NCBI GenBank assembly: GCA_015488755.1
Contig: WFNB01000079.1
Span: 1-50,339 of the forward strand
Direction of reading: 5' to 3'
Length of the DNA stretch: 50,339 nucleotides
From: Gammaproteobacteria bacterium
Lineage (GTDB): Bacteria; Pseudomonadota; Gammaproteobacteria; GRL18
This document shows positions 2,027-50,055 of the stretch, piece by piece; positions within the stretch are counted from its first letter, which is position 1; the number at the start of each line of letters is the position of its first letter. The notes beneath the pieces are model-generated. The model searched no databases, was not told where the DNA came from, and saw only the letters and a list, made by a program, of their open reading frames with translations. A program made the position numbers and the translations under genes.

Positions 2027-2039
2027 AGGTCAACGGTTC

Positions 2040-20384: not shown

Positions 20385-20474
20385 AATTCCACTTTTTGAA
20401 TGATATATGACAAAAGGTATTGCAGGGCCGTTGCTCTACAATACGCAACGACCACAAACAATCATAAAGAGAGT

Positions 20475-27448: not shown

Positions 27449-27463
27449 AGACTGGGGATTGTT

Positions 27464-32515: not shown

Positions 32516-32530
32516 GCTGAGGACACGATT

Positions 32531-33937: not shown

Positions 33938-33980
33938 TCAACATTCAATCATAGGTGGGTACTTAAGCACTTTTGAGGCG

Positions 33981-34084: not shown

Positions 34085-34137
34085 TTAGGTATCTACGTAT
34101 GAACATTTAATAGATAGTAATCATTCAGGTAATGATA

Positions 34138-35730
34138 ATGAATAAAACACGATTAACGCTTTTTTCTTGTTTATTAGCGTCTCAAGTTGCTCTTATGCCA
34201 CTGGCCAGTGCAGAAGAATTGCGTATTGACGTGGAACATTATAACGTCATTGGTGAAAGCCATTTAAGTGAGGCGCAATTATCGACGTTATTAGAGCCTT
34301 ATACTGGTAATAATAAAACGCTTGATGATCTCCAACAAGCCGCTACCGCCTTACAAAATAAATTGCGTGATATTGGTTATGGTTTTTATCAAGTCGAGCT
34401 GGCCGCACAAACCCTAGACAGCAAAGAAGTTACTTTGACGATTGAATCCATTGTGATCCATGATATTAATGTGGAACACAGCGATGCTGATAAGCAGTAT
34501 TTTTCTCAAGAGAATATTCGCCATTCCCTGCCTTCATTAAAAAAAGGCACATCGCCTAATTTGCATAAAATTAGCAGTGAATTGGAAATGGCCAATCTTA
34601 ACCCATCAAAAAATGCCACTGTGCAATTTGCTATGAGTCCTCAAAGCAATGAAATTGATGCGGATATTATTGTTAATGAGCAAAATCCTCAGGACATTTA
34701 TGCTTGGTTTAATAATACGGGTAGTAAGGACACAGGGGATTATCGTTTAGGGGTTGGCTATACCCATCATAATTTATTTGATAAAGACCACGAGCTACGT
34801 CTGACCTTTACCACTTCACCCAATCATGCCAGTGATGTGCAACAATACGGTATTGATTATCGTATTCCTTTTTATGAGTATCGAGGCATCTGGAATCTCT
34901 ATGCCTATTATTCGGATGTGGACTCCGGTACGGTAGCCGGTGGTTTTGATGTCGCCGGTAAAGGTACCTTTATTGGTACTAGGTATGAGTGGTATTTACC
35001 TAAGTTAACTAATCAAAGTAAATACGCCCATCATTTGGTCTTTGGTTTGGAAGATAAGCTCTTTAATAATGATGTCTTTTTTGCTAAAAGCGCTCTGGGT
35101 ACCGATGTACGCTCGACGCCACTTTCGATTGCCTATTATGGTCGCTGGGAACAACTGACTCATAATCTGGACTTTTACCTTAAGTATGAGCATAACTTGG
35201 AATTTGGTAGCCATAATAGCAAACTAGCCTATACCTTAAGCCGTTATAATGCTACTCCCAATTGGGATGTTTTTAAATTTGGAGCTAATTTTGACCGTCC
35301 CATTGGCCAGTATCGCTTACATGCCAGTGTCAATGCCCAGTATAGCGATCAAGAACTGATATCAGGTGAACAATTTGGTATGGGAGGGCAAACCGGTGGG
35401 GTGCGCGGTTTTAGTGAGCGTGAGATCATCGCTGATCGCGGTGTCACCGCTTCTTTAGAACTCTGGTCTCCTACTTTATGGAACAATCAAATCAATGCCA
35501 TGGCCTTTACTGATTATGGTTATGCGAATCGTGTTAATCCCTTACCTAATGAACAACGTTCTGATAGCATTATGTCGCTGGGTATTGGTGCTGTTTGGCG
35601 CTGGCAACAGCATGTGGATCTCACGGTGTATCTTGCCCATGTGACCAATGGTAATGATTCAGATGTCACCGACGATCCCACCCATTCAGGTGATAATGCC
35701 ATTCACTTTAATTTATTTATTAATTATTAG
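34138..35730 (+). CDS. TpsB outer-membrane transporter (FhaC/ShlB family)
   Basis: The 530-residue protein has a signal peptide (to about residue 25, PLASAEE), two POTRA domains (about 28-185: VEHYNVIGESHLSEAQLSTL, GFYQVELAAQTLDSKEVTLT) and a 16-strand beta barrel with the family tip motif in VRGFSERE (VRGF) and a Phe/Tyr-terminal last strand (FNLFINY). It exports the TpsA protein from the periplasm through the outer membrane. The second ATG (34138) is preferred over the one at 34132, since AGG then lies 8 bases upstream. It is separated from the tpsA/fecR pair by a nested repeat. Confidence 0.88.
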   Translation: MNKTRLTLFSCLLASQVALMPLASAEELRIDVEHYNVIGESHLSEAQLSTLLEPYTGNNKTLDDLQQAATALQNKLRDIGYGFYQVELAAQTLDSKEVTLTIESIVIHDINVEHSDADKQYFSQENIRHSLPSLKKGTSPNLHKISSELEMANLNPSKNATVQFAMSPQSNEIDADIIVNEQNPQDIYAWFNNTGSKDTGDYRLGVGYTHHNLFDKDHELRLTFTTSPNHASDVQQYGIDYRIPFYEYRGIWNLYAYYSDVDSGTVAGGFDVAGKGTFIGTRYEWYLPKLTNQSKYAHHLVFGLEDKLFNNDVFFAKSALGTDVRSTPLSIAYYGRWEQLTHNLDFYLKYEHNLEFGSHNSKLAYTLSRYNATPNWDVFKFGANFDRPIGQYRLHASVNAQYSDQELISGEQFGMGGQTGGVRGFSEREIIADRGVTASLELWSPTLWNNQINAMAFTDYGYANRVNPLPNEQRSDSIMSLGIGAVWRWQQHVDLTVYLAHVTNGNDSDVTDDPTHSGDNAIHFNLFINY

Positions 35731-35754
35731 TCTGCTCAGATACTCTTGAATAAC

Positions 35755-35824
35755 AAAAAATTGGCACAAATGGTTTTAAAGCACTTTATTATGTTATTTC
35801 AAACCATTCATGCCAATTTTTTTT
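35755..35824 (+). terminator. Terminator-like hairpin after tpsB
   Basis: AATTGGCACAAATGGTTT and AAACCATTCATGCCAATT pair imperfectly across a 24-base loop, with an A-run before and eight T after. It should end the tpsB transcript, and the next gene starts only 18 bases later. Confidence 0.75.
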
Positions 35825-35842
35825 GGCTGTGGACACTTCTAA

Positions 35843-38020
35843 ATGCGTAAACGCCTTATTATCCATTTAATCATTAATTCATTATTAATTACTGGCTTAT
35901 TGGGCGTTTATATCAGCTTACCTAAAACCTATCAATCACTGGATAATCGCTTACGGGATTTTATGTTCATTAGCCGTGGCAAGGTGGATGATAGTAAAAT
36001 GATTTCGATTGTCACCATTGATGAACCGAGCCTTAAAGCGCTTGGGCAATGGCCATGGGAACGCACTAAAATTGCCCGCATGTTAGAGAATTTAACCACT
36101 GCTGGTGCCACGATTATTGCTCTGGATGTGTTTTTTTCTGAGCAGGACAAAAGCTCTCCTCAGTATGTCATTCATTCTTTAGGCTTGGATAAATCTCTGG
36201 ATAAAAAATTGGTCACATCACTGCCCGATTATGATCAGATTATGGCACAGACCATCGGCCAGACACCGACTATTTTAGGTTATATTTTCGATCTTAAAAA
36301 AGCACGCAATAGCGAACAATTTCCCATAATCAATGCCACTATTTCAGAAAAGAATTTTGCTAACACCGAGTTTTTACCCCAAGCAAAAGGGGTCACACTG
36401 AATCTGGAGCAATTTCAAGAAAGCGCTTTTTCCTCCGGTTTTATTAATAGCCTGCCTGATGAATCCGGCATGATACGCCGTGTGCCCTTATTGATGAAGT
36501 ATCAAGAAGTGGTATTTACCTCTTTAGCCATGGAAGTCTTTCGCTTAGTCTCAGGGCTTGATGCCATTAATATTAACTATGAGCATACTGGAATTTCCTC
36601 TCTAGAATTAGTCTATGATGGTGGTTCAGCCATTATTCCAACGGATCGTAATGGTCGCTTGGCACTGAACTTTTTAGGCCCACAAAAAAGTTTTACTTAT
36701 ATTAGCGCCAAGGATGTGATTGCTAACACCTTTGATAAAACATTGGTTAAAGATAAAATTATTCTTTTTGGTGCCACCTCTGTAGGGCTTATGGATTTAC
36801 GAGCCACTCCGTTTGATAATGCCTTGCCCGGTATTGAGGTTCATGCCACAGCCATTGAGAATATGATCAAGCAGGATTATTTACAAGAACCCGACTGGTC
36901 AGAAGGAGCAACCACACTATTATTAATTGTTATTATGCTTTTTTTAACGCTTCTCTATAGTTTTTTGCCTGCCCATTGGACCGTCTTATTGATGTGTTTT
37001 AGTTTATATGGCCTATATGTGTTTTTTGATTTTATGCTCTTTCAACAAGGGCTGATTTTAAATATGCTCTTTCCTTTAGTTTGTGTTGTTTTGCTCACCA
37101 TTAGCTCAACCTTATTGAATTATTTTTTAGAAAATAAACAACGCAAAAAAATCCGTGATCGCTTTTCACAAAAAGTATCCGCTGCGGTGGTGGATGATAT
37201 TATGCGTCAGGGCAGTACCGATTTATTAATTGCCCAAGAAAGGGAAATATCCATTTTCTTTAGCGATATTCGTGGCTTTACCAATATTTCTGAAGCCCTT
37301 GCCTCACCCACTAAACTCATTGATATGCTTAATATTTATATGACTCCTATGGTAGAGAGTATTATGCATCATCAGGGCACGGTGGATAAGTTTATTGGCG
37401 ATGCCATTATGGCCTATTGGAATGCCCCACATCATGTGAATAATCATGCAGATAAAGCCATTCAGTCGGCCTTACAACAAATGCAGCAATTAAAACGAGT
37501 CAATCAATTTTTATTGCAAAAATATCAACTCAGTATTGATATTGGTATTGGTATTAATACGGGGCAGGCCACAGTGGGTGAGATGGGGTCTAAGGGACGC
37601 TCAGATTATACCATTATCGGTGATTCGGTTAATCTTGCCTCTCGTCTGGAAGGCTTAAATAAACCTTATGGCTCTAATATTATTATTTCGGAGTTTACTC
37701 TAGCACAGGCAAAGGCTAATTATGTGATCCGTGAGTTAGATAAGGTTCGAGTTAAGGGTAAAAAAGAAGGTATTACCATTTATGAGGTGCTGCAAGAAGG
37801 CACTGCCCAAGAGCCATTGATAAGCTTGCTTAAACGTTATAATGAAGCACTGGAATGTTATAAAAAAGCTCAGTTTATTGACGCTATGGCTTTGTTTGAG
37901 CAATTAAAAGCAACGGAAGAAAAAACCACACTCTATGAGCTTTATATTGCACGTTGCCAAAATTACATTGACCATCCACCCAGTGATTTTGATGGTGTGT
38001 ATACCTTTACGACTAAGTAA
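35843..38020 (+). CDS. Class III adenylate cyclase with CHASE2 sensor domain
   Basis: The 725-residue protein has a TM at 8-28, a periplasmic CHASE2 domain (about 30-335, ISIVTIDEPSLKALGQWPW and GVTLNLEQFQ), three TM helices (about 350-430) and a cytoplasmic class III cyclase domain (about 465-640). Both metal Asp residues are present (FSDIRGFTN, FIGDAIMAYW). The base-selecting Lys (VDKFIGD) and Asp (SDYTIIGD) are of the adenylate type, and the transition-state Asn/Arg lie in VNLASRLEG. The C-terminal 70 residues look like one TPR-type unit (NEALECYKKAQFIDAMALFE). The product should make cAMP on an extracytoplasmic cue. It lies downstream of the TPS/FecR locus on the same strand, but after a terminator. 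Confidence 0.88.
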   Translation: MRKRLIIHLIINSLLITGLLGVYISLPKTYQSLDNRLRDFMFISRGKVDDSKMISIVTIDEPSLKALGQWPWERTKIARMLENLTTAGATIIALDVFFSEQDKSSPQYVIHSLGLDKSLDKKLVTSLPDYDQIMAQTIGQTPTILGYIFDLKKARNSEQFPIINATISEKNFANTEFLPQAKGVTLNLEQFQESAFSSGFINSLPDESGMIRRVPLLMKYQEVVFTSLAMEVFRLVSGLDAININYEHTGISSLELVYDGGSAIIPTDRNGRLALNFLGPQKSFTYISAKDVIANTFDKTLVKDKIILFGATSVGLMDLRATPFDNALPGIEVHATAIENMIKQDYLQEPDWSEGATTLLLIVIMLFLTLLYSFLPAHWTVLLMCFSLYGLYVFFDFMLFQQGLILNMLFPLVCVVLLTISSTLLNYFLENKQRKKIRDRFSQKVSAAVVDDIMRQGSTDLLIAQEREISIFFSDIRGFTNISEALASPTKLIDMLNIYMTPMVESIMHHQGTVDKFIGDAIMAYWNAPHHVNNHADKAIQSALQQMQQLKRVNQFLLQKYQLSIDIGIGINTGQATVGEMGSKGRSDYTIIGDSVNLASRLEGLNKPYGSNIIISEFTLAQAKANYVIRELDKVRVKGKKEGITIYEVLQEGTAQEPLISLLKRYNEALECYKKAQFIDAMALFEQLKATEEKTTLYELYIARCQNYIDHPPSDFDGVYTFTTK

Positions 38021-38056: not shown

Positions 38057-38566
38057 TTAAACACCACCACTATGAACCACTTCATAATAGATTTTTTCTA
38101 GATCATTTTTATGCTCGGTTTCTTCTTGTGCTAAGAAGGTAAAGACATCTTTTAGCGGCCCTTCTGGAGCAGAGTCTGCGAGGGCATGATATTGATCCAT
38201 TGCCGCTTGTTCTCGGCCTAAAGCATATTGCAAAATGCTTTGATCATCGGGATGATCGCCTAATTCTGGCAATTGAATACAGTCTGAAAAGCGTTTATTG
38301 CTCGCAGGAATGGCAATTTCTTGTTTAATTTGTGCGTTTACTTGCGGGTTCTTTGCTAGATCAACAAAGAGATCATAGTGGCGTTGTTCTTCTAATACCA
38401 GTTCATCCACTAAATAGCGAATACGCTTACTGACTTTTGGAGCTAAAAGCGCATAAAACTCACAGGCTGTGCGTTCAAACTCTGTGGCTTGCTGTAGAAT
38501 TTCTTGCACCGTTGTGCAGGCTGAGAGTTTCTCTGCACTTGAATCACTATGATTACTATCTGTCAT
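38057..38566 (-). CDS. Rubrerythrin/ferritin-like di-iron protein
   Basis: The 169-residue product forms a four-helix bundle with the diiron ligand pattern in order: E in TEFERTACEFY, E-x-x-H in LEEQRHYDLF, E in GREQAAMDQY and E-x-x-H in QEETEHKNDL. It has no rubredoxin domain, so it is rubrerythrin- or erythrin-like. Such proteins reduce peroxide or hold iron. It is the last gene of the Mrp-type operon, 10 bases after the flavoprotein gene, and could protect the oxygen-sensitive Fe-S complex. It is rarely part of the archetypal Mbh/Mbs operons. Confidence 0.75.
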   Translation of the reverse strand: MTDSNHSDSSAEKLSACTTVQEILQQATEFERTACEFYALLAPKVSKRIRYLVDELVLEEQRHYDLFVDLAKNPQVNAQIKQEIAIPASNKRFSDCIQLPELGDHPDDQSILQYALGREQAAMDQYHALADSAPEGPLKDVFTFLAQEETEHKNDLEKIYYEVVHSGGV

Positions 38567-38576: not shown

Positions 38577-40439
38577 CTATTTAAGGTTAGTCATTAAATA
38601 TCGATCAATACTCTGTGCCACACGATGACCATCGGCCACGGCATGCACCACATCGGGACCACTGACACAATCACCGGCTGACCATAGCCAGTCAACGGAG
38701 GTTTGACCATCTTCGGTAATTTGGATGCGACCTCTTTGCCAAGTCAGTTGTTCGGTTAGTTCATCACCTAATAATTCCATTTCAGCCATTTGACCAATGG
38801 CTTCAATCACCATTTCAGTGGCCAAAACTTGCTCATCTGAGTCATCATATTGGGGAGCAAAACGACCATCTGAGTCAAACACAGACTTAACTCGCCATGT
38901 TTTCAGACCAACAATACAATCCTTTTGAATTAAAATTTCTTGTGGACCTCGGGCTGGGATAATTGTTACCCCTTCTTCTAACGCCTCACTGATTTCTTCT
39001 TTATCTGCAGGGAAATTAGCTAAGTCATCAATGGCCGTCACGGTAATATTAACTTGTTGATAGGCTTGCTTTTGAAAACGAGCCAGACTTCGGGCAATAT
39101 CCATTGCAACATTACCACCACCAATCACTACAGCACTTTTAGGTATTTCAAAACCGGCCTCAGAGCTTTCTGAGGAGCCTATTTTACGCAATAATTCCAC
39201 AGCACTATGGGTGTCTTTATGATCAGAGCCGGGAATTCGAGTTGAACGCCCTGCCTGCAAACCAATGGCTAAGACGACGGCATCATAGTCCTGATGCAAT
39301 TGCGCCATACTGATTTGATCCTTTTTGCCCGTACCAATACGAGTATTGTATTGAATTTTTACTCCCATTGAGACAATCACATCAACATCTCGTGCTAACA
39401 TATCATCGGGGAGACGATAGTAGGGAATGCCATAGCGAGTCATACCACCGGCCTTGGCAAGGGCTTCAAATACTTGCACCTCATGACCGGCTTTCACTAA
39501 ATCAAAGGCGGCGGTCAAACCTGCTGGACCAGCACCAATAATGGCTATTTTTTTACCACTTTTGCTTGCCTGAATTTTAGCGGCAGCAATTTCTTTAATA
39601 CGTTCATGGGGTACGGCATCCATGGCATAGCGCTTTAACCAGCGAATGGCAATGGGGGCACTGCCACCGTCTAAGTCACTTTGATTCAAAGAACAAGCGG
39701 TTTCACAACGATGAGTACAGACCCGACCACAGACATGAGAAAACGGATTGCTTTCATACATCCATTCAACAGCTTGTTCAACATCGCCTTTCCAGATAGC
39801 ACGGATATATTCAGGGGCATGCATGTGGGTTGGGCAGGCATCATGGCATAGACCACATTGCACACAACGAGAGGCTTCTAATATGGCTTGTTCAGCCGTA
39901 TAGCCGTTAACAATTTCAGAAAAATTATCACCCCTATCTTCTGGGGTCATTGCTGCCATTTCAGTACGAGTTCGCGCCAATAGATCGTTGCTTTGGGTTT
40001 TTGTCCAGCCTTTTTCTTGCTCGGTACCATGCATGCCTTTTTCTTGAGGCAGAATGAAGTAGCTATCGGTGTCATCGCCATCACAGGTGTGCACATATTC
40101 TCTGGACAGTTCAATGGCACCTACTGGGCAAATATCCACACATAGAGCACACCAGCAACAACGACCATAATCAATGGCAGGGCGAAGATTACGGATGCCA
40201 TTCACGGGATCTTCTTTTAAGTGTGGTACTTTCACCATCGTAATAGCGGCATTATCACAAATTTTCTGACAGGTGCTACAGCCAATGCATTTTTCCATAT
40301 CATTGAGATGGAAACCTCGATAAATATCAGCGGCCGGTCTGGGTTCGAGTTTTTCGGTAATGGGCTTGCGGGCAAAGAACTGTAGGCTCTTTAGCGGATT
40401 AAGAATACTGCCAATGTCATCGTAGTTAATTTTTTTCAT
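38577..40439 (-). CDS. NuoI-like ferredoxin fused to a GltD-like FAD/NAD(P) oxidoreductase
   Basis: The 620-residue protein joins three parts. Residues 45-110 hold two [4Fe-4S] ferredoxin motifs (C51-C54-C57-C61; C94-C97-C100-C104), like NuoI/MbhN. Residues 185-255 hold the glutamate-synthase-small-subunit Fe-S region (C192-C195-C198-C202 and C237-C241-C245-C249). Residues 295-615 are a two-dinucleotide-binding flavoprotein (FAD site IIGAGPAGLTAAFDL near 300, pyridine-nucleotide site VIGGGNVAMDIARSLA near 435). It should exchange electrons between NAD(P)H and the membrane complex. The ATG at 40439 overlaps the NuoD-like stop by one base. No glutamate synthase alpha gene is nearby. Confidence 0.85.
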   Translation of the reverse strand: MKKINYDDIGSILNPLKSLQFFARKPITEKLEPRPAADIYRGFHLNDMEKCIGCSTCQKICDNAAITMVKVPHLKEDPVNGIRNLRPAIDYGRCCWCALCVDICPVGAIELSREYVHTCDGDDTDSYFILPQEKGMHGTEQEKGWTKTQSNDLLARTRTEMAAMTPEDRGDNFSEIVNGYTAEQAILEASRCVQCGLCHDACPTHMHAPEYIRAIWKGDVEQAVEWMYESNPFSHVCGRVCTHRCETACSLNQSDLDGGSAPIAIRWLKRYAMDAVPHERIKEIAAAKIQASKSGKKIAIIGAGPAGLTAAFDLVKAGHEVQVFEALAKAGGMTRYGIPYYRLPDDMLARDVDVIVSMGVKIQYNTRIGTGKKDQISMAQLHQDYDAVVLAIGLQAGRSTRIPGSDHKDTHSAVELLRKIGSSESSEAGFEIPKSAVVIGGGNVAMDIARSLARFQKQAYQQVNITVTAIDDLANFPADKEEISEALEEGVTIIPARGPQEILIQKDCIVGLKTWRVKSVFDSDGRFAPQYDDSDEQVLATEMVIEAIGQMAEMELLGDELTEQLTWQRGRIQITEDGQTSVDWLWSAGDCVSGPDVVHAVADGHRVAQSIDRYLMTNLK

Positions 40440-41581
40440 TAGCGATCCACCTCTGGTGGGCAGGCATCTAAGGAGAACATAATCTGTGCCACATCTTCAA
40501 TTCGTGCGCCTACGGATAGGTTTTCTAATACTTGTACCGCATGCATGGATGAGGGTCCTCGAACATGCACTCGATAGGGCTTGTCACCACCATCAGAAAC
40601 GGTGTAATAAGCCAACTCACCTTTGGACGATTCTACCCTTGAGTAGCTTTCTCCCGCTGGCACATTCCAAGCCAGAGGATTAGGAATGGGACTGCGTACC
40701 GCCCCTTTTACTGAGGGTAGGTGTTTAATAATTTGTCTAACCATACGCACACTTTGAAACAGCTCATCTCGGCGCGTTAAAATACGAGCCAAGGCATCAC
40801 CTGCTTCTTGCACAGGAATATCAAAATCTAATTGCTCATAAATAAGATAGGGATCATCACGACGGACATCAAAGGGCAAACCACAGGCTCGTAAATTTGG
40901 CCCTGTAACGCCCCATTCTAAGGCCTGCTCTTTATTAATCGCCCCCACATCACGGGCACGTTTAACAAACACTTGATTGGTAAACAGTAAATTATCATAA
41001 TCATTTTGTCTGGACTCTAAATAATCCAGCAAATTGCTCACTCGATCTAAGAAACCATGAGGGATATCTCGGCGTACACCACCGGGAATATTATAGATAT
41101 GATAAACCCGTCCCCCTGTGAGTTCTTCAAATAAGTCCAGCACTAAATCTCTATCAGCCACGCCCCAAAACATTGGCGTATACATGCCTGTTGTGGCAGC
41201 ATGGCCGCCGAAGGTAAACAGGTGTGCGGCAATACGTGATAATTCTAGTTGTAAGACTCGGATCCACTGCCCTCGTTCGGGTACTTCTATCTGAGAAATT
41301 TCTTCCACACTTAAGGAGTAGACCACTTCCATAGGCACAGGGTCAGGCACACAGATACGGGGCACAATGGCTAGATTCTGGATCCATAAACGCCCTTCCA
41401 TGAGTTTCTCAAAACCACGATGTAAGTAACCTGCATCTGCCTTACCAGAAATGACCCGATCACCATCCAGCTTTAATTTAAAGGCATAGTTACCTTCAAT
41501 ACCGGGGTGGTTAGGACCAATAAAGAGTTCGTATTCATTACTTCCGGGTAGCTGGACGGCTTGATAATTTTCCGGTCTCAT
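40439..41581 (-). CDS. NuoD/hydrogenase-large-subunit-like protein without the full NiFe site
   Basis: The 380-residue product belongs to the group-4 hydrogenase large subunit/NuoD family (GPNHPGIEGNYAF, DAGYLHRGFEKLMEGR, GGRVYHIYNIPGGVRRDIP). NiFe hydrogenases bind the metal through two CxxC pairs. Here the first is RICVPD (C77 kept, the second Cys replaced by D80) and the last is DACPPE (C374 kept, E377 in place of Cys). With two of four ligands gone, a NiFe centre is not expected. Mbs/Mbx-type subunits also deviate. The ATG at 41581 overlaps the NuoC-like stop by 4 bases; a longer frame exists but lies inside nuoC. This subunit probably reduces or oxidises an unknown substrate, possibly sulphur or a quinone. 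Confidence 0.85.
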   Translation of the reverse strand: MRPENYQAVQLPGSNEYELFIGPNHPGIEGNYAFKLKLDGDRVISGKADAGYLHRGFEKLMEGRLWIQNLAIVPRICVPDPVPMEVVYSLSVEEISQIEVPERGQWIRVLQLELSRIAAHLFTFGGHAATTGMYTPMFWGVADRDLVLDLFEELTGGRVYHIYNIPGGVRRDIPHGFLDRVSNLLDYLESRQNDYDNLLFTNQVFVKRARDVGAINKEQALEWGVTGPNLRACGLPFDVRRDDPYLIYEQLDFDIPVQEAGDALARILTRRDELFQSVRMVRQIIKHLPSVKGAVRSPIPNPLAWNVPAGESYSRVESSKGELAYYTVSDGGDKPYRVHVRGPSSMHAVQVLENLSVGARIEDVAQIMFSLDACPPEVDR

Positions 41582-42147
41582 AGACGAACATCCTCTGGGC
41601 GAATGGCAATGCCACCGCCTTCTTCGGTGATTTCCTGCAACCACTTGGGATTATAGTCTGCCCAGTTAAAGGTTTCGTTGACATAGGCCTCGGCATCAAA
41701 ATCTTTGCGCATGGGCGGCATACCATGCCATTCGGTCAGAATGAATTTTTCCATAAAGGGACTGCTTTCAAAGTGGATGCCATACATTTCATAAATATCC
41801 CGCTCAAAAAAACCAGCCGGTTTATAAATATCATAAACAGAGACATAGTGCGCTAATTCTTCACAGGAGTTACGAGGTATACGGGTATGAGCAGACAATA
41901 GGGATTTTGCTTCATAAGACCAGCAATGATAGACCAATTCAAATTCTTCATCATCCGGCCAGTCCACACAGGAAATAGCCGAAAGATGTACATAGGATGC
42001 CTTACCCTTGAGCAGTTCTAATAAGGCCGGCAAGGAACCTGATGGCACATCCACCCGCACGCGTCGCTCGCTTTTACGCTGTACTTTTATTTCTTTAATT
42101 TCATTCAGTAAGGTATCTAACCAAGTGTTGATTTCATCGCAATTCAT
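41578..42147 (-). CDS. NuoC-like 30-kDa subunit
   Basis: The 189-residue product has the NuoC/HycE-N-terminal domain features: VHLSAISCVDWPDDEEFELV, AHTRIPRNSCEELAHYVSVY, and the signature FFERDIYEMYGIHFE. It structures the interface between the NuoB-like and NuoD-like subunits and has no redox centre. The stop overlaps the NuoD-like start (ATGA). A 60-base gap separates it from the NuoB-like gene. GAGACC before the ATG is a moderate ribosome-binding site. Confidence 0.85.
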   Translation of the reverse strand: MNCDEINTWLDTLLNEIKEIKVQRKSERRVRVDVPSGSLPALLELLKGKASYVHLSAISCVDWPDDEEFELVYHCWSYEAKSLLSAHTRIPRNSCEELAHYVSVYDIYKPAGFFERDIYEMYGIHFESSPFMEKFILTEWHGMPPMRKDFDAEAYVNETFNWADYNPKWLQEITEEGGGIAIRPEDVRL

Positions 42148-42207
42148 ATACGCTGGTCTCTTTTTTATTCATCATGTACGATCACTCTCAAGCGCTTATA
42201 AAGGCAT

Positions 42208-42906
42208 TTAAAATTTTATCTGCATTGTCTGTGCTTCTAAGGGTTGTTGGTGTTGGGCAAGAATATCGGTGTGCTTACCATAGGTTTGCTCAGCTTCAAG
42301 TTCATAATATTTTGCTTCACCAATGACATCGGTCGGGGTTTGCCAGTCATCACCAAAGAGGTGTTGCTGATTACCTAAATAATAATCATAACGCTGATAG
42401 TAGTCCTGCCACGCATTGCCTTTACCTTGTTCAATATTAGCCATTAACCGTCTTAGGCCACTGATCACCGCTTCGGGTCGAGGCATACAGCCCGCAATAT
42501 AGACATCAACAGGGAGATATTCATTGAGCACTTTGGCGGTGGCATAACTTTGCCAATACATGCCCCCATTAACCGTGCAAGAACAAATGCCTATCACATA
42601 TTTAGGTGACTGCATTTGCTCATAGGTTAAAATCACTCGTTTTAAGGTTTTCACTGAGACATAGCCTGTGACCAATAAAATATCCGCCTGTCTCGGTGTG
42701 ACCATTGGTTGAATCCCCAGACGCTCCATATCAAAACGTGAGGTCATTGCCGGAGGTAATTCAATGGCACCACAACCCGTACAATAGTGCAGCATAAACA
42801 GTGAGCGTGATTGACAAAATTGAATAAATTCATCAAACACTGTCGCCAATGGATTGGTGCGTTTATTATTATCTGCCTGTACAGGAATGTTGTTCAGTGT
42901 GTTCAT
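42208..42906 (-). CDS. NuoB/MbhJ-like small Fe-S subunit
   Basis: The 232-residue product contains the four-Cys set of the proximal [4Fe-4S] cluster: HYCTGCGAIE (C42 and C45), C110 in GICSCTVNGG, and C140 in AGCMPRPEAV. The C-x-x-C spacing of the first pair is that of group-4 hydrogenases and Mbh/Mbs, not the adjacent CC of complex I NuoB. It passes electrons between the fused ferredoxin and the large subunit. The 60 C-terminal residues after the conserved core are Gln/Glu-rich and not recognised. Confidence 0.87.
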   Translation of the reverse strand: MNTLNNIPVQADNNKRTNPLATVFDEFIQFCQSRSLFMLHYCTGCGAIELPPAMTSRFDMERLGIQPMVTPRQADILLVTGYVSVKTLKRVILTYEQMQSPKYVIGICSCTVNGGMYWQSYATAKVLNEYLPVDVYIAGCMPRPEAVISGLRRLMANIEQGKGNAWQDYYQRYDYYLGNQQHLFGDDWQTPTDVIGEAKYYELEAEQTYGKHTDILAQHQQPLEAQTMQIKF

Positions 42907-42928
42907 TTTTTATACCAAAAAGAAAAGA

Positions 42929-43840
42929 CTACATGACAAAAGCGATGCCAATTAATGCCACCATTACCGGCCATTTCCACATGACTCTTACCATGTCTTC
43001 GGTGCGATAACGAGGAAATAAAAAGGCCATGGTCATGGGAATGGAAACCACCAGAAAAATCTTTAGCAGAAACTCAGGCCAGTTATTACCGCCACCTAAA
43101 AATAAGGAGGTATACAACACACCAGCGGTATAGAATTGGAAGGACTGCATAACAAATAAGCCCCCCATAAACTTACCGCTCATTTCTACCATGGGGCCTG
43201 TGGCAATTTCTGCTGGTGCGACATAAATTTCAAAAGGCTGTTTGCCCATCATCCCCTGTAGGGCAAATAATCCGGCAGCCGCTAATAAGGGCATTTCAAA
43301 AATACCCCATTGATGCGCCTGTTGATAATCAATCATGCCAATTAATGAGGTGCTTTGATAATGTGTGGCAACGCCAAAGACCACAATGATAAAGGGAATA
43401 TCATAGGCCAGCATTGCCGTAAGCGCACGGGAAATACCTATCGAGCCATTAGGGTTGGCGCATTGTCCCACACCCAATGCCATGCCAAGTGAAGGGATCA
43501 TGAGAAAATAAGAGAGGGTAATAATACCACCTTTATCGGCAATGCCATCCATACCCGGAACAGGTAGTAAAATTTCTGAGGCGATATAACCCCCCACGGC
43601 AACCACAATACCGATTTCATGGATCAGACCATGAGATACTTGGGTGCTTTTACTATACAGCTTAACAATATCATAGATGGGTTGGAAAAATGGTGGACCG
43701 ATACGACGTTGTAAACGGGCTGACAGTTTTCTCATCATCAAGACCATTAACAGGCCAACAAAAAAAGCAATCAAAGGCATAAAGAGTAAATCAACTAGGA
43801 CGGTACTCAAATCGGTTAAAGAGTGAGTGAGTGAATTCAT
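42929..43840 (-). CDS. NuoH/HyfC-like membrane subunit
   Basis: The 303-residue product has about eight TM helices and the NuoH/HycD pattern: RRIGPPFFQPIYDIVKLYSK, GVGQCANPNGSIGISRALTA, and YVAPAEIATGPMVEMSGKFM. It joins the peripheral Fe-S arm to the antiporter-like membrane arm. I chose the ATG at 43840 (MNSLTHSL), which lies just after the stop of the upstream gene with GGGAGG inside that gene. An upstream ATG would overlap the neighbour by 23 bases. Confidence 0.87.
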   Translation of the reverse strand: MNSLTHSLTDLSTVLVDLLFMPLIAFFVGLLMVLMMRKLSARLQRRIGPPFFQPIYDIVKLYSKSTQVSHGLIHEIGIVVAVGGYIASEILLPVPGMDGIADKGGIITLSYFLMIPSLGMALGVGQCANPNGSIGISRALTAMLAYDIPFIIVVFGVATHYQSTSLIGMIDYQQAHQWGIFEMPLLAAAGLFALQGMMGKQPFEIYVAPAEIATGPMVEMSGKFMGGLFVMQSFQFYTAGVLYTSLFLGGGNNWPEFLLKIFLVVSIPMTMAFLFPRYRTEDMVRVMWKWPVMVALIGIAFVM

Positions 43841-43841
43841 T

Positions 43842-45764
43842 TTAGCCAAACCTCCCGACAGCAATACCCCAGATAGCCATCACTACGACGGCAACCACTA
43901 ACATAGTGGGTTGATTGGCACGATAAAAGTTCTCTGCCAGTTGTGATAAAAAACTGACTAATGAGACAATGGCTTTTTCTAAGCGAACAAAGGAGCCACG
44001 ATACCAACCACCAATTAAATGCATCAAACCGGCATAGAAATTATGGCTATAATGATAACGAACTTTAGCAGTTAAAAAATGTCCACCCGCATAGTTGTCA
44101 TATTGATGTACATGCTTTGCTCGACCGCCTATAAGATAAAAAATGACCGCACCTACAGCAAAGCCATAGAATAATATCAGAGTCAGCCAAATCATATCCA
44201 GACCACCCGTAGGCAAGATAATACCACCCAAGTGATAATCTAATGGTGGCAAACCAATAGCCGCTTGTACAGGGACAATCCAGTCTAAAATCAAACCTGG
44301 CATAACGCCTGTAACAAAAATAATCAGTGCTAAAAGCAACATGGGGATCAACATAGTCAGTGGCGCTTCTTTTATTTCTTGATGTTCAACCCGAAGCTGT
44401 CCTAAAAAGGTATTATGCACCAGCTTATAAACGGATAAAATCGTGCCCAGCGTACCAATCACGGCGGCCACAAACAATAAGGGCTGACCATCTAATAGTA
44501 AGGAACGATAGACCATCCATTTGGAGACAAAACCATTCATCGGTGGTAAACCAGCCAAACCAATAATACTAAAGACCATCACCATAAAGGTTAATGGCAT
44601 TTGTGATACCAGACCGCCCAGCTTATCAAAATTAGACGTTCCCGTGCGATACATCACAGCGGCCACGGTCATAAACAAAGCAGCCTGATAGGTGGCATGG
44701 TTAAAAACATGCAATAACCCCCCAGCAGAACCCACATTATCAGCAATAACCAAGCCCAATAACATATAACCACCCTGTCCAACACCATGCCAAGCTAATA
44801 AGTGACGTGCATCATTTTGTTTGAGGGCAATATAGGTGGGAATAATGGTAGTTAATGCGCCTATCCATGCCAGCACGGATTGTACATTCCAGAAGGTATA
44901 GGGAATATGAATATAGGCGAAATTATCCATACTAATTAATTGAAACAAAACCACAATAATCGCATACAAGCCCATACGCGCAGAGATAGCACCCATAAAG
45001 ATCGCACCCGGAGCCGGTGTTTCTGCATAGGCGACCGCCTGCCATAGATGAAATGGGATCACACCCATTTTAATAGCAAAGCCAACCACAAAGAGGATCA
45101 CCAAGGGGATTATTTGCTCACTTGACAGATGACTCATGGATAAACGCACAATATCATATTGCAATGAACCACTAATGTCATAGATATAGGCCATAGCAGC
45201 CAACAAGGCCATTGCCCCCGTCATTGCATACATCAGATATTTCATGGCTGCTTGTCGAGCCACTTTTTGTGGATTTAAGACCATCATAAAAAAGCTGGCC
45301 CAACTGACAAATTCCCAACCAATAAAGAGGCTAATAAAATCACCACTGGCCAGTAATAACAACATGCTATTGACGTTCAGCAATAGGCCAAGGTGTAGCA
45401 TGGTATAAGCATTGGCCGATGTTTTTTTCCGATAGTCTTCACCCCAAACACCCGACATAAACAGCGCCGCAAATAGAGCTGCCACAACGGTAATAATAGC
45501 AAAAAACCATGACAGAGCATCAAAGCGCCATTGCAGGGGTTCGCCCAAAAGATGTAAATGAAAAGAGGATTGGATCTCACTGGCACTGCCCGCATCAATA
45601 TAAACCAGAGAGGCCATCTTAATTAACAATAATAATTGCCCGACATAAAGTAGCGGTGATAATTTTGCAAGCCAAGTAGCCTGACGAGGCAAAAATAGGC
45701 CAATAATAATCACTATGGCCAAGCCACTCAGGGAAACAATAAAGAGTTGATCTAGGTTATTCAT
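43842..45764 (-). CDS. Second large antiporter-like subunit (NuoL/HyfB/MbsH' type)
   Basis: The 640-residue product has about 16 TM helices and a proton-antiporter core. The TM5 Glu lies in FIGWEFVSWASFF and the conserved Lys in VGFAIKMGVIPFHLW, and HDxxHLLAWHG is visible. In the next conserved helix the usual Lys appears as Arg (GAISARMGLYAII). The long C-terminal part holds a lateral-helix-like stretch. It starts 4 bases inside the end of the MnhD-like gene. Two antiporter-like subunits in one operon are also found in the sulphur-reducing Mbs complex (MbsH and MbsH'). Confidence 0.85.
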   Translation of the reverse strand: MNNLDQLFIVSLSGLAIVIIIGLFLPRQATWLAKLSPLLYVGQLLLLIKMASLVYIDAGSASEIQSSFHLHLLGEPLQWRFDALSWFFAIITVVAALFAALFMSGVWGEDYRKKTSANAYTMLHLGLLLNVNSMLLLLASGDFISLFIGWEFVSWASFFMMVLNPQKVARQAAMKYLMYAMTGAMALLAAMAYIYDISGSLQYDIVRLSMSHLSSEQIIPLVILFVVGFAIKMGVIPFHLWQAVAYAETPAPGAIFMGAISARMGLYAIIVVLFQLISMDNFAYIHIPYTFWNVQSVLAWIGALTTIIPTYIALKQNDARHLLAWHGVGQGGYMLLGLVIADNVGSAGGLLHVFNHATYQAALFMTVAAVMYRTGTSNFDKLGGLVSQMPLTFMVMVFSIIGLAGLPPMNGFVSKWMVYRSLLLDGQPLLFVAAVIGTLGTILSVYKLVHNTFLGQLRVEHQEIKEAPLTMLIPMLLLALIIFVTGVMPGLILDWIVPVQAAIGLPPLDYHLGGIILPTGGLDMIWLTLILFYGFAVGAVIFYLIGGRAKHVHQYDNYAGGHFLTAKVRYHYSHNFYAGLMHLIGGWYRGSFVRLEKAIVSLVSFLSQLAENFYRANQPTMLVVAVVVMAIWGIAVGRFG

Positions 45765-47347
45765 TGCTCGGCACTCCCTAGGACTAAATCTTCTTTTATG
45801 GCCTTTTCTTTTATTGAAGGTTCGCTAACTAACGGCTGTTTTGCCTGATCGGTAGGACTCATACGATCTATGCGAGCTTCAGGCGTGCCTATATTGGCAA
45901 ATACAGTATGAATATAGAGCAAACGATTACCACTTTGGTAAGCCATAGACACTAATTTTCTCTCCACTGAAGGTAATTGCACCACACTGATGAGCAACAC
46001 AGCTGCCAAGGCTATCGCGGTAATCCAATCGAATAGGCTATGTTGACTGCTCGCATGAGTATGGTTTTCTTTTTTATAAAACAACATTACCACGCGATAC
46101 AAGTAAGCAGCCTCCAATACAGTTGCCAGCAACATAAAGGCTAGAGCAAAGTGGTAAACCGGATCGGTTTGCACCGCTAGGTTCATCACTAAAAGTAATT
46201 TCACCCAAAAACCCGGCAAAGGTGGAACACCCAATAATGACATCGCTAATAAAACAAATAAGGCGACATGATAGGGTGAAGATTGTGCCATACCTGATAA
46301 CTTTTCTAATCTCCCTGACCAGCCCCCTGCCAGCATAAACAAAGCTGGCTTCACCACAAGGTGATGTAGAGCAATGGCAAAACCTGCCAACAAACCAATG
46401 TTACCCGGTAGAGAGAATGCAATAAAGACTAAACCAAGTTGCCCTATGGATGAAAATGCCAACATACGGGTCATATCTTTGGCTCGCCAAGCCACTAATT
46501 CACCACTAATGACACCCAACATGCCTAATACCGTCATTAGATGCAGAGCTTCTGGTTGGGGGAACAGTAATACCAGCAAACGAACAATGACAATGACGGC
46601 CAGTTTGGATAATAGACCCGCCATAAGTGCTGATAAACGTGTGGATACCCCCGCATAGACTTCGGGCACCCAAGTATTCACTGGGAACAATTCTGCTTTG
46701 ACCCCAAGCCCAACTAAAATTAAGACAAAAGCAGATAAACCCGTGATATTATTCAGTGCCTCAGGTGCCAATAAAGACAGCTGTGCTAAATTTAAGGTAC
46801 CAGTTTGTAGATAAATAATGGCAATCCCCAAAAGCATCATCACCGAACCGACTGAACCCAAGAGCAAATAACGTAACGAGGCCACCCACGCAACCACAGG
46901 ATGTTGCCCCTGCCTCACTTGAACGCTAACTAAACCATAGGAAGCGACAGCCAATAGCTCATAGAAGACATAAATATTAAATAAATCACCGCTGAGCATC
47001 AAGCCCGAAGCTGAGGCAGTTAATAGCATCATCAAAGAATATTCTTGAATCGAACTAGGGCGATTCCACGGCCAAAATATTAACACCATAACGGGGATCA
47101 ATAAGGCAAATAATAATGACAATTGATCAATATAAAAGACCACACCCAAGGGCGGTTGATAACCACCGATAGCAAAAGAAATCGCCTGTTTATCAACCTC
47201 TCCCCAGACATTCAGCACCAGTGTAATCGAAATCAAGAGAACCAATAGACCACTTAATCGTGCCAAGACTTGTGAGCTACGTGCTAACACAGGCATCAAG
47301 AAAGCGGCCAGTAGGGGGAGAACCACCAATAAGACCAGTTTATCCAT
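45761..47347 (-). CDS. mnhD: Mrp antiporter subunit D (MnhD/MbhH-like)
   Basis: The 528-residue product has about 14 TM helices with the proton_antipo_M core: the TM5 Glu in NIYVFYELLAVASYG, Lys in LVGLGVKAELFPVNTWVPE, and a further Lys in LMAGLLSKLAVI. This is the Mrp subunit D type. It carries H+ or Na+ in the membrane arm. The C-terminal 40 residues are polar (SPTDQAKQPLVSEPSIKEKA) and absent from typical MnhD. It overlaps mnhC by 8 bases and the next gene by 4. Confidence 0.88.
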   Translation of the reverse strand: MDKLVLLVVLPLLAAFLMPVLARSSQVLARLSGLLVLLISITLVLNVWGEVDKQAISFAIGGYQPPLGVVFYIDQLSLLFALLIPVMVLIFWPWNRPSSIQEYSLMMLLTASASGLMLSGDLFNIYVFYELLAVASYGLVSVQVRQGQHPVVAWVASLRYLLLGSVGSVMMLLGIAIIYLQTGTLNLAQLSLLAPEALNNITGLSAFVLILVGLGVKAELFPVNTWVPEVYAGVSTRLSALMAGLLSKLAVIVIVRLLVLLFPQPEALHLMTVLGMLGVISGELVAWRAKDMTRMLAFSSIGQLGLVFIAFSLPGNIGLLAGFAIALHHLVVKPALFMLAGGWSGRLEKLSGMAQSSPYHVALFVLLAMSLLGVPPLPGFWVKLLLVMNLAVQTDPVYHFALAFMLLATVLEAAYLYRVVMLFYKKENHTHASSQHSLFDWITAIALAAVLLISVVQLPSVERKLVSMAYQSGNRLLYIHTVFANIGTPEARIDRMSPTDQAKQPLVSEPSIKEKAIKEDLVLGSAEQ

Positions 47348-47870
47348 TGACTGATCCTCCTATTTGTTGAACATCGGCCTTGGCTTGAATATGATCGGGT
47401 TGAGTCTGTTCGGCTTGACAAATAACCTTAGAACGCACTAATGAATCTGGACTCTGAGCACTTGCAGGCAGTGTTACATCATTATTCTTGGCCAAATCGT
47501 ATTCCATTTGTTGACGAATTTCACTCATATCTAGCGTATTATAATGGGCTTTGATTTTTAAAATTAAGGCCAATGCCAACGCTTGAACACCCACACCAAT
47601 AACAATCGCCGTCAAGACCAGAGCTTGTGGTATTGGGTCGTTCATCATGTGCCCTGCATCACTAATGGCATGATTGCTAAGAAAAATAGGCGCAATCCCT
47701 AAGCCATGAAAACCAGCAAGGATCAAGAAGAGATTGGCTCCAGATTCGAGTATCACCAAAGCCAGCACCATGCGAAAAACATTATTGCTCATAAATAAAC
47801 CCGCGAGGCCAATCATAATCAGACCAATCGCACCCAGCAAAACAATGCCTTCAACTCCGGTCATATTCAT
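47340..47870 (-). CDS. mnhC: Mrp antiporter subunit C (MnhC/MbhG-like)
   Basis: Three TM helices (about 7-110) match MnhC/NuoK: RMVLALVILESGANLFLI, with the Glu conserved in NuoK, and DPIPQALVLTAIVIGVGVQA. The product has 176 residues; ordinary MnhC has about 115, so the C-terminal 60 are an extra polar tail (LAKNNDVTLPASAQSPDSLV). It overlaps mnhB by 4 bases. Confidence 0.87.
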   Translation of the reverse strand: MNMTGVEGIVLLGAIGLIMIGLAGLFMSNNVFRMVLALVILESGANLFLILAGFHGLGIAPIFLSNHAISDAGHMMNDPIPQALVLTAIVIGVGVQALALALILKIKAHYNTLDMSEIRQQMEYDLAKNNDVTLPASAQSPDSLVRSKVICQAEQTQPDHIQAKADVQQIGGSVNG

Positions 47871-48610
47871 TGCGTATCATCCTCCGACAATGAGCCTTGT
47901 GTTTCCGTTATAGAAAAATCGGCTATGGTTGCTAACAATCCCGCTAACTCAGCACCCACTTTTAAGCCCAGAGCAAGATAAAGTAAAGGTAACGTACCTG
48001 CTGACCATAGTTCACCCAGCGTTCCTTTGGCAAAAAGACCATTAAAGAAAGGCTGTAAAAAGGGGCGCTCATAGAACATTGCCCATAAGCCGATTAAAAT
48101 AAACACCGCACCAGCTAAGCCTTCAATAATACTAATAATGTTATGATCCAAACGGGCATCCGATTGCACCAATACCGGTAGAAAAAAAGCAATCGCAAGG
48201 ATCACCCCACCTTGAAAGCCACCACCAGGTGTCAGATGACCATAAAAAATAATATAAAAGCCAACCACTAATAAGAGAGGTATCATTAATTCAATGCCTT
48301 TTTGACTAATGAAGCCACTATTATTTTTAACCTGAGTTGGCGGAACATTTTGTGAAGCACGATGACCTAAAATTAAGCCCACTCCCGCCGCAGCGGTAAA
48401 TAAAATAGATAATTCACCCAGTGTATCAATACCACGATAGGCCAATAAAATAGCAGCCACGACATTGGCACTGCCCACCTCATGAGGTGATGCCTGAATA
48501 ATATCACTACCCACCAGCATTAATGGTTGCCCAAAAGGTAAGTGAGTTGCTATGACTAATAATAAAAATGCCAGACCACCAGAAAACAGTAAGCCACTTA
48601 CATTACGCAT
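47867..48610 (-). CDS. mnhB: MbhE-MnhB fusion-like Mrp subunit
   Basis: The 247-residue product combines two Mrp modules. Residues 1-90 resemble MbhE or the end of MnhA (NVVAAILLAYRGIDTLGELS), and 110-235 are MnhB (YIIFYGHLTPGGGFQGGVIL, then LKVGAELAGLL). In Mbh/Mbs operons these are usually separate small genes. I chose the ATG at 48610 because AAGGA lies 8 bases upstream; an in-frame ATG six codons earlier has none. It overlaps mnhC by 4 bases. Confidence 0.85.
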   Translation of the reverse strand: MRNVSGLLFSGGLAFLLLVIATHLPFGQPLMLVGSDIIQASPHEVGSANVVAAILLAYRGIDTLGELSILFTAAAGVGLILGHRASQNVPPTQVKNNSGFISQKGIELMIPLLLVVGFYIIFYGHLTPGGGFQGGVILAIAFFLPVLVQSDARLDHNIISIIEGLAGAVFILIGLWAMFYERPFLQPFFNGLFAKGTLGELWSAGTLPLLYLALGLKVGAELAGLLATIADFSITETQGSLSEDDTQ

Positions 48611-48660
48611 TATCGTATTCCTTATCATCCAGCGTATTCATTACTCGATTGAATCTGATA

Positions 48661-48918
48661 TTAATTGACATCATCATCATCCAATCGCCATAAACCCAAA
48701 CGCCTCAGCGCTAATGCTAATAGTAAACTGCTTAAACCTGCACCAATGGCGGCTTCTGTCATTGCCACGTCGGGTGCTTTGAGTAAGGCAAACAAAACCG
48801 CTAAGGCAAGAGACACCACGGACGATGCGACAACTGCTGCCAGCATATTAGGCAAAAGTAATACTGCAATGGCCGATGCTAACATGACAAAAACCAATAG
48901 AGATACAAACCAAATCAT
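48661..48918 (-). CDS. MbhD-like Mrp subunit (DUF4040)
   Basis: The 85-residue product has three TM helices with the MbhD/MnhA-C motif: VVASSVVSLALAVLFALLKAPDVAMTEAAIGAGLSS contains 'APDVAMTEAAIG', the family signature. In stand-alone Mrp antiporters this piece is the end of MnhA. As a separate gene it marks the Mbh/Mbs/Mbx layout. It overlaps mnhG by 4 bases. Confidence 0.85.
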   Translation of the reverse strand: MIWFVSLLVFVMLASAIAVLLLPNMLAAVVASSVVSLALAVLFALLKAPDVAMTEAAIGAGLSSLLLALALRRLGLWRLDDDDVN

Positions 48919-49232
48919 TGTTTATTATCCTCTTGGGGTTGTTTTGATGGATGATGCCATACTTTAATTCCTGAGCGATAGAAGGAGCGAGCAATGGCCG
49001 ATGAACTGACCGGATTGGTCAGTAGCATAAAGCCCATAATGATAAATAATTTTGCCCCCCATTGAGGGAATAGTATAAAAAGCCCGATAAAAATAGCCAT
49101 AGCACCAAGCGTTACGGCTTTGGTACCCGCTTGGATCCGATTATACACATCCGGCATACGGATCAGACCCAGAGCACCTAAAAAAATAAATAGCGCACCA
49201 AGAAGAAAAAAGCAATCTGCAATGAGTCTCAA
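48915..49232 (-). CDS. mnhG: Mrp antiporter subunit G
   Basis: Three TM helices with the MnhG pattern IRMPDVYNRIQAGTKAVTLG and FIIMGFMLLTNPVSSSAIAR define this 105-residue subunit. It is a small part of the cation-translocating Mrp module. It overlaps its neighbours by 4 bases on both sides. Confidence 0.9.
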   Translation of the reverse strand: MRLIADCFFLLGALFIFLGALGLIRMPDVYNRIQAGTKAVTLGAMAIFIGLFILFPQWGAKLFIIMGFMLLTNPVSSSAIARSFYRSGIKVWHHPSKQPQEDNKQ

Positions 49233-49552
49233 GACTTATCTCCTTCAATCGCTTTGGCCAAAGCGATGATCCCAACAAAGGATAACACGCCGTAGATCAT
49301 GGCCACATCAAGATACAGCACACTTTGAAAGACTCCGGCAATGCCACAAAGCATAATGGTGGCAATAACCGATAAGGTATCAGCACTGACAATTCGATCG
49401 GGCGTGGTGGGACCAAACAATAAGCGGTAAAGGCACATTAACGTGGCCAGCACAATTAATAATACAGCCAGACTTTCAAGTGTTGTCATTTCCCAAATGG
49501 GAATATTCGATATACCCGTCGCTGTCTGTTCTATACTTGCAAGCGTTTTCAC
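49229..49552 (-). CDS. mnhF: Mrp antiporter subunit F
   Basis: The 107-residue product has three TM helices and the MnhF signature RLLFGPTTPDRIVSADTLSV with YLDVAMIYGVLSFVGIIALA. A 20-residue N-terminal extension precedes the normal start; the overlap with mnhE supports the frame. Confidence 0.9.
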   Translation of the reverse strand: MKTLASIEQTATGISNIPIWEMTTLESLAVLLIVLATLMCLYRLLFGPTTPDRIVSADTLSVIATIMLCGIAGVFQSVLYLDVAMIYGVLSFVGIIALAKAIEGDKS

Positions 49553-50055
49553 TTTAAAAAACCTTTTAAATAATATTCAAAATCTTCTGCAATGGCTTGG
49601 GTCGCCTGTTCTATACTGGTGCCATCTGGGCAATCAATCCAGTGCACAAGAAGAAAGTCATCAGTCACATCCACCGATAAGGTACCGGGGGTTAACGTAA
49701 TGCTATTGGCTAAAATCAATTTACCCAGATCCGATTGCATGGTCGTTTTCACTTTGATCATGGCTGGATCAATGGGAATTTCTTTGGCCACAACTCGTTG
49801 TGCGAGATCAATGTTAGACTTTAATAGTGCCCATAAAAAATAGCCTAAGTAGTTGATCAATGCCAGCAGACTATAAGGAGCAATAATTAAACCATTTAAT
49901 ATCAATAAATTTTTCGCACTGATATAGGCGACCAATGCGGACACCACTAACCCCGTCAGCAAATCTTCACGGTTAAATGTGCCTGTTAATAATAACCAAA
50001 GCAAAAGACAGATAAAAAAGGTCAGGATATAAGGGGGTGAAATACGCTTGTTCAT
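49549..50055 (-). CDS. mnhE: Mrp antiporter subunit E
   Basis: MnhE is the first gene of the operon. The 168-residue product has two or three TM helices at the N-terminus and a soluble part with LANSITLTPGTLSVDV, the family motif. Its promoter candidate lies about 40 bases upstream at 50093-50120. All downstream genes overlap or nearly abut, so one transcript of about 12 kb is likely. Confidence 0.9.
   Translation of the reverse strand: MNKRISPPYILTFFICLLLWLLLTGTFNREDLLTGLVVSALVAYISAKNLLILNGLIIAPYSLLALINYLGYFLWALLKSNIDLAQRVVAKEIPIDPAMIKVKTTMQSDLGKLILANSITLTPGTLSVDVTDDFLLVHWIDCPDGTSIEQATQAIAEDFEYYLKGFLK

Follow-up and report, generated by a model that had tools for sequence, protein, structure and literature searches.

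What feeds a membrane complex that follows the plan of the archaeal-type MBS complex when its electron-entry subunit is fused to a flavin and pyridine-nucleotide module, and what reaction would such a complex carry out? The question is raised by an operon in the 50,339-nucleotide stretch of DNA analysed here (the window), which is contig WFNB01000079.1 of assembly GCA_015488755.1, from a gammaproteobacterium of the GTDB lineage GRL18. The operon runs on the minus strand from 50055 to 38577 and comprises 13 same-strand genes, with a conserved rubrerythrin-like gene as a fourteenth; its junctions are mostly overlaps of 1–23 bases, the largest gap is 60 bases, and 10 bases separate the fusion gene from the rubrerythrin-like gene. 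We give about an even chance to the reading that the complex, by sequence and by analogy, is MBS in an NAD(H)-linked form and acts as a reversible, ion-coupled NAD(H):polysulfide/persulfide oxidoreductase.

The assignment to the MBS type comes from the subunits themselves. An earlier note on this DNA had named two antiporter-like subunits, MbhD, a fused MbhE-MnhB, NuoH-, NuoB-, NuoC- and NuoD-like subunits and a 620-residue fusion, and every one of these is present on the minus strand at the place given; its list was correct as far as it went and left out the genes for MrpE, MrpF, MrpG and MrpC and the rubrerythrin-like gene. When five subunits were compared with all solved chains, the best chains for the large subunit, the NuoB-like subunit and the 528- and 640-residue antiporters were MbsL (6u8y_L), MbsJ (6u8y_J), MbsH (6u8y_H) and MbsH' (6u8y_X), with runners-up at 253.7, 117.2, 152.3 and 140.5 bits respectively (top scores are in the table), and, for the fusion, a profile of its N-terminal part matched MbsN at 110.7 bits and NuoI of complex I at 61.1. 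By sequence comparison each of the 12 subunits besides the fusion corresponds to an MBS subunit. The structural account of Pyrococcus furiosus MBS (formerly Mbx; PDB 6u8y) gives, in the passages concerned, 13 subunits including both H and H', with MbsE bridging the two membrane modules (PMC7684303), and the operon, with 13 genes, both antiporters and a two-module-spanning MbsE, thus corresponds to it one to one. A stand-alone MbsN ending the three-cluster arm, the ferredoxin entry, is absent; since the MbsN domain is instead fused to an NfnB/GltD-like module, we class the complex as an MBS variant and not as a plain member.

The same arrangement recurs widely. A scan of named loci matched at least 590 stretches, of which 296 were confirmed and the best 80 kept. 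Hosts among these best 80 include Thiodiazotropha, Sedimenticola, Thiolapillus, a tubeworm symbiont, Lamprocystis, Thiohalocapsa, Thiomargarita, Parabeggiatoa, Thiothrix, Magnetovibrio, Magnetospirillum, Gallionellaceae, Celeribacter and others. Of the loci, 52 reach 9 kb or more beyond the fusion on its upstream side, and in 47 of these the gene set, counted without demanding that the second antiporter be a separate gene, is present in full and in the right order, so the arrangement is not chance; recurrence of the fusion in 80 named loci rules out an assembly artefact. The large subunit lies at the same locus in 77 of the 80. The exceptions are L098, with only 34 bases available upstream, and two Beggiatoaceae (L065 and L066), in which a type A large subunit (67–68% identity) lies elsewhere in the genome; in these, from Parabeggiatoa and Thiomargarita, the pair of fusion and rubrerythrin-like genes is unlinked from the remaining complex genes (L065:3475-6019, L066:9995-12258).

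The 78 large subunits that were read, 77 from loci and one from the window, including two truncated ones, fall into two types, with 46 in the window-like type A and 32 in type B. A maximum-likelihood tree of 33 sequences drawn from these 78 and their comparators, with 12 of type A (the window and 11 loci), two from Beggiatoaceae and 12 of type B, and with the complex I rows L107 and L110 (no open frame with the motif), L108 and L109 left out, places types A and B together with MbsL in one group at 100/99, away from complex I and from HycE/MbhL; it carries a long-branch warning, MbsL being a single long branch whose order relative to types A and B is unsettled. The phylogeny of the large subunit, which the earlier note had proposed as a check, thus does not put it within the active hydrogenases. 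A tree of the fusion, made from 26 of 81 fusion rows, agrees with that of the large subunit, also for the gene-split Beggiatoaceae; a separate set, A4, comprised 46 rows.

The large subunit has the motifs GPNHPGIEG, PRICVPDP and DACPPEVDR and retains the two cysteines of MbsL (equivalents of C85 and C385). It is without the CxxC pairs of [NiFe] enzymes, which together with its separate clade excludes an active group 4 [NiFe] hydrogenase; the equivalents of the quinone-site His and Tyr of complex I (H38/Y87) are replaced in every readable row, which with its position outside the complex I clade excludes an ordinary complex I. Complex I and the group 4 hydrogenases (MbhL, HycE) belong to the same superfamily as this complex but to separate clades, and the catalytic residues of both are missing here. 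The NuoB-like subunit carries YCTGCG, GICSC and AGCMPRP, the cysteine pattern of MbsJ, and is expected from this to hold the proximal [4Fe-4S] cluster. In MbsJ itself, according to passages of the structural work, C28, C93 and C123 bind the cluster and leave one iron free of cysteine, and C25 was shown to be dispensable (PMC7684303). Type A retains YCTGCG in 37 of 37 readable NuoB-like rows; the C25 equivalent is missing in all 27 readable rows of type B. Type B large subunits (CRICVPEP, HTYPPEIER) keep only the first MbsL cysteine, have gained a nearby Cys and have no C-terminal cysteine, and these loci (within L068–L101, e.g. L075:3420-6581) mostly replace the two antiporters by a single protein of about 1040 residues with two antiporter domains. 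The chemistry at the site may differ in type B. Types A and B are both represented in the genus of the window itself.

These residues also bear on the idea of an alternative NADH:quinone oxidoreductase, in essence complex I equipped with another NADH module. The overall plan is like that of complex I and an NADH module is present, NCBIfam calls the large subunit NuoD, and the forward reaction would be energetically the easiest; however, the quinone-headgroup residues are replaced, the MBS motif stands in place of the adjacent-Cys motif of NuoB, the large subunit falls outside complex I, and the genome of the window has a separate complex I NuoD. We regard this as distinctly improbable.

The 620-residue fusion consists of an MbsN/NuoI-like domain for two [4Fe-4S] clusters (residues ~11–119), a Fer4_20 domain (171–277) and a two-domain FAD/NAD fold (297–600). 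All 81 sequences share seventeen invariant Fe-S cysteines, enough, it appears, for about four clusters, two of NuoI type and two in the Fer4_20 domain; the junction of ferredoxin-type clusters with a GltD-type module had been recognized before, with two clusters instead of about four. The AlphaFold model has a mean pLDDT (predicted local distance difference test) of 82.9, with a low-confidence linker near 116–136. For its second half the closest fold is that of NfnL from NfnI (TMt 0.87–0.88), followed by the glutamate synthase small chain (0.84–0.85), and residues ~150–616 share both fold and sequence with NfnB/NfnL, GltD and the DsrL-type Fe-S flavoproteins. Among the operon genes there is no NfnA-like gene. 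For DsrL, passages of a published analysis assign NADP(H) to proteins with YRR at the position facing the NADP phosphate and NAD(H) to those lacking it (PMC7596348). Among 80 readable fusion homologues, 79 have A-[LIM]-[ED] as the corresponding triplet and one has ALQ; YRR occurs in 0 of 80, an absence shared with NAD-type DsrL-1 and distinguishing the fusion from Nfn transhydrogenase. Because YRR is absent and an acidic residue is present, the fusion is predicted by the DsrL rule to use NAD(H), not NADPH; NADPH specificity was dismissed on the same 80 sequences. The earlier proposal of a nucleotide-linked, probably ion-translocating complex of Mbs type thus stands, with NAD(H) in place of the NADPH for which it had proposed a test.

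The fusion as such is not new. It matches the NCBIfam profile PRK13984 (NF010590) over positions 10–608 of 611 at 794 bits, below the cut-off of 946, and is by sequence a clear homologue of the family without being a member by the cut-off rule. Thermotoga maritima scores above that cut-off in a profile search, so that the view that known systems have no such fusion has to be given up; the T. maritima gene presumably lies in its MBX operon. That complex, in the passages of its published description, has 13 subunits encoded by 13 genes, is induced by S0 (elemental sulphur) and has ferredoxin assigned as its donor (PMC9431562).

In the mechanism that we favour for the NAD(H)-linked MBS variant, NADH would hand two electrons to the FAD of the fused module, from which single electrons would pass through the module's two Fe-S clusters, continue along the pair of MbsN-type clusters and arrive at the proximal [4Fe-4S] cluster held by NuoB/MbsJ. 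The iron of this cluster that is not ligated by cysteine would break or form the S-S bonds of polysulfide or persulfide, as in MBS, and this chemistry would be coupled through loops of MbsL, MbsM and MbsH' to the movement of Na+ or H+. A different use of the same parts, the alternative of the earlier note, would be an Rnf-like ferredoxin:NAD+ oxidoreductase. Ferredoxin would then trade electrons with the MbsN part and NAD(H) with the fused part, ions driving the reduction of either ferredoxin or NAD+. MbsN of P. furiosus takes electrons from ferredoxin, and in Endoriftia, a gammaproteobacterial sulphur oxidiser, the neighbours of the Mrp-Mbx genes are those of the reductive tricarboxylic acid (rTCA) cycle, which uses ferredoxin, as passages of the respective papers state (PMC7684303, PMC11636981). 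Such a reading leaves the conserved MBS proximal cluster and chamber without a role, and ion coupling in the superfamily is described as passing through the proximal-cluster site (PMC7684303, in part). Three RnfC genes already score over the cut-off in the genome of the window, and we consider an Rnf-like role improbable.

The direction of the NAD(H):polysulfide/persulfide reaction would be reversible. The potential of NADH is −320 mV, and from textbook potentials two electrons release ~42 kJ from ferredoxin to polysulfide and ~10–12 kJ from NADH to sulphur. At an NADH/NAD+ ratio of 0.1 and 150 mV, a machine moving two ions is calculated to reduce S0 only below ~42 µM sulfide, and one moving four ions virtually never; for the two-ion machine at 100 mV the sulfide limit is 2 mM. 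Given this small drop and these thresholds, the direction would be set by sulfide and the ion gradient: plentiful sulfide in an energised cell would send electrons from sulfide or polysulfide to NAD+, and low sulfide or a low gradient together with stored S0 would permit NADH-driven sulphur respiration. The reverse mode suggested in the earlier note is thermodynamically plausible as far as generation of NADH is concerned; for ferredoxin as its product we find no evidence. A bolder version, doubtful in our judgement, holds that the complex works in reverse in vivo, as a gradient-driven sulfide/polysulfide:NAD+ oxidoreductase supplying Dsr-type sulphur oxidisers with NADH from sulfide independently of the quinone pool, with S-S bonds formed at a three-cysteine [4Fe-4S] cluster and types A and B representing two site chemistries.

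Operation in the forward direction alone is the opposite possibility: NADH from polyhydroxyalkanoate, glycogen or organics would reduce stored S0, as polysulfide or persulfide, under anoxic conditions, with few or no ions pumped. Beggiatoaceae are documented, in passages of one study, to respire sulphur with stored S0 and polyhydroxyalkanoate (PMC4959497), both the fusion and a type A large subunit are encoded in the Parabeggiatoa and Thiomargarita genomes, and mbxA of T. maritima is reported to rise 4.36-fold with S0 (PMC9431562, in part). The ~10–12 kJ available per two electrons, however, is less than one ion costs at 150 mV, which is odd in a complex with two antiporter subunits, and an NAD(P)H sulphur reductase in the cytoplasm could serve without a pump; we think a forward-only role unlikely.

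Several considerations weigh against the reversible NAD(H)-linked reading. The sulphur substrate is carried over by analogy from P. furiosus MBS, and the energetics rest on textbook potentials and on the S0/HS- couple in place of the actual polysulfide or persulfide. The assignment to NAD(H) depends on one motif, whose alignment register is ambiguous by two residues (VTA or AID), although pairwise alignment places Arg in neither register. Ferredoxin may enter as well as NADH. The model of the fusion has pLDDT below 50 at residues 1–11, 25–42, 116–120 and 122–136 and therefore gives no electron path joining the two halves. Where MbsH' has K248, the window protein has Arg, and Arg stands there in all 30 type A rows (antiporter rows being kept only at 80–125% of the length of the window protein); the stoichiometry of the pump may differ as a result. 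In Endoriftia, passages of the study cited above place expression of the complex with the rTCA cycle, most sulphur-oxidation genes neighbouring the Calvin-Benson-Bassham cycle (PMC11636981). Finally, the association with dsrA, which speaks for the reading, is partly accounted for by shared ancestry within one genus: dsrA is found in 18 of 18 fusion genomes among 57 relatives and in 11 of the 39 others (Fisher p ~2e-7), a figure inflated by that ancestry, and three of the 18 are dsrA-positive only through contig-edge fragments.

A sample of 397 genomes from the phylum shows the same link, with dsrA in 6 of 6 fusion genomes and 33 of 391 others (Fisher p ~6e-7; with the window genome left out, 6e-6), so that in both samples the genomes carrying the complex are dsrA carriers only. 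Two dsrA genes are present in full in the genome of the window, and the proposed identity of its bearer as a sulphur oxidiser is borne out to the extent that dsrA is associated with that lifestyle. Fusion and large subunit also go together. The fusion is present in 18 of the 57 relatives and the MBS-type large subunit in 16, all within those 18, the other two having the fusion at a contig end; a seventeenth large-subunit match (G041) is weak and complex I-like. In the phylum sample six genomes have the fusion and the same six the large subunit, whose score falls from 352 to 253 bits after the sixth. By this co-occurrence the fusion and the MBS-type large subunit are dedicated partners.

In 73 of the 80 named loci the fusion is followed by the rubrerythrin-like gene, and contig ends cut five of the other seven. 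Its diiron ligands are well conserved, with E60 and H63 in 75 of 75 rows, E119, E149 and H152 in 72 of 75, and E31 in 72 with Asp in the other three. As a guess, the protein would shield the O2-sensitive cluster or accept electrons from the flavin module. At one locus (L021:1180-3150) a portion of the rubrerythrin-like protein shares its reading frame with the last part of the fusion, the start of which is in another frame, reflecting either a real fusion or an assembly error. The prevalence of this gene, its ligands and the in-frame part would suit a redox-gated Na+/H+ antiporter combined with an NADH:rubrerythrin peroxidase, serving mainly in stress or pH control, but the conserved MBS core and the link to dsrA genomes would then be left unexplained, and we hold this to be very improbable. 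Beyond the rubrerythrin-like gene no conserved flanking gene was found, the widest flanking cluster covering 16 loci and resembling generic signalling, and no plasmid copy was found at E 1e-100 among 72,556 records.

Set beside P. furiosus MBS, the complex is alike in its 13 subunits, H and H', MbsE, the two MbsL cysteines and the MbsJ cluster motif; it differs in the flavin/NAD module on MbsN with about two more clusters, the rubrerythrin-like fourteenth gene, the Arg at the K248 position of MbsH', and its proteobacterial hosts, which are mostly sulphur oxidisers. The archaeal-type MBS is thereby extended widely into the proteobacteria, and the working assumption that MBX-type complexes are fed by ferredoxin only is challenged. 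The usual explanation for the NADH supply of autotrophic sulphur oxidisers is that electrons from quinol run backwards through complex I. An NAD(H)-linked MBS is a candidate both for this supply and for the sulphur respiration of S0-storing bacteria, for which the passages on Beggiatoaceae name no enzyme (PMC4959497). In Endoriftia a 'putative Mrp-Mbx complex' has been named and MBX listed among complexes of unknown function or direction, in passages that name no fused NAD module, rubrerythrin-like gene or two types (PMC11636981); the symbiont of the tubeworm Escarpia (L050) has a type A operon. We found no account of an MBS complex carrying an NAD(H) module in the open PMC literature, which is weak as an absence; papers on Nitrospira and Nitrospina had no bearing on it. 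Cultured hosts that could serve as test targets are Thiothrix caldifontis and Thiohalocapsa marina, both with type B, Lamprocystis purpurea, with type A, and Magnetovibrio blakemorei.

Genes of the operon in the window, in order of transcription. The Mbs letters of the small subunits are assumed.
Feature	Coordinates	Strand	Evidence
MrpE-like, MbsA equivalent	49549..50055	-	Pfam MNHE 128.5 bits
MrpF-like, MbsB equivalent	49229..49552	-	Pfam MrpF_PhaF
MrpG-like, MbsC equivalent	48915..49232	-	Pfam PhaG_MnhG_YufB
MbhD-like, MbsD equivalent	48661..48918	-	Pfam MbhD
Fused MbhE-MnhB, MbsE equivalent	47867..48628	-	Pfam MnhB + MbhE
MrpC-like, MbsG equivalent	47340..47870	-	Pfam Oxidored_q2; NCBIfam antiporter subunit C
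Antiporter-like subunit, 528 aa, MbsH equivalent	45761..47347	-	6u8y_H 187.6 bits
Antiporter-like subunit, 640 aa, C-terminal extension, MbsH' equivalent	43842..45764	-	6u8y_X 202.6 bits
NuoH-like membrane anchor, MbsM equivalent	42929..43864	-	Pfam NADHdh
NuoB-like, MbsJ equivalent	42208..42906	-	6u8y_J 214.3 bits
NuoC-like, MbsK equivalent	41578..42147	-	Pfam Complex1_30kDa
NuoD-like large subunit, MbsL equivalent	40439..41581	-	6u8y_L 406.7 bits; tree
620-aa fusion, MbsN-like part + NfnB/GltD-like module	38577..40439	-	Domain matches, solved-chain match, predicted fold
Rubrerythrin-like diiron protein	38057..38566	-	Pfam Rubrerythrin

Two of the starts call for comment. The NuoD-like gene most likely begins at 41581 and not at 41644, because its relatives begin with MRPENY, and the listed start of the NuoH-like gene is TTG, with an ATG present at ~43840.

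Elsewhere in the window, a 1775-residue DUF3686 AAA protein adjoins a 722-residue protein without a Pfam match (15057-22643), and the region 27437-38020 holds a two-partner secretion (TPS) pair, consisting of a 1692-residue TPS-domain protein and a ShlB-like transporter, and also encodes a FecR protein and an adenylate/guanylate cyclase of the CHASE2 kind. A complete type I Wadjet set, jetA-jetB-jetC-jetD, is identified by PADLOC on the minus strand at 776-7625.

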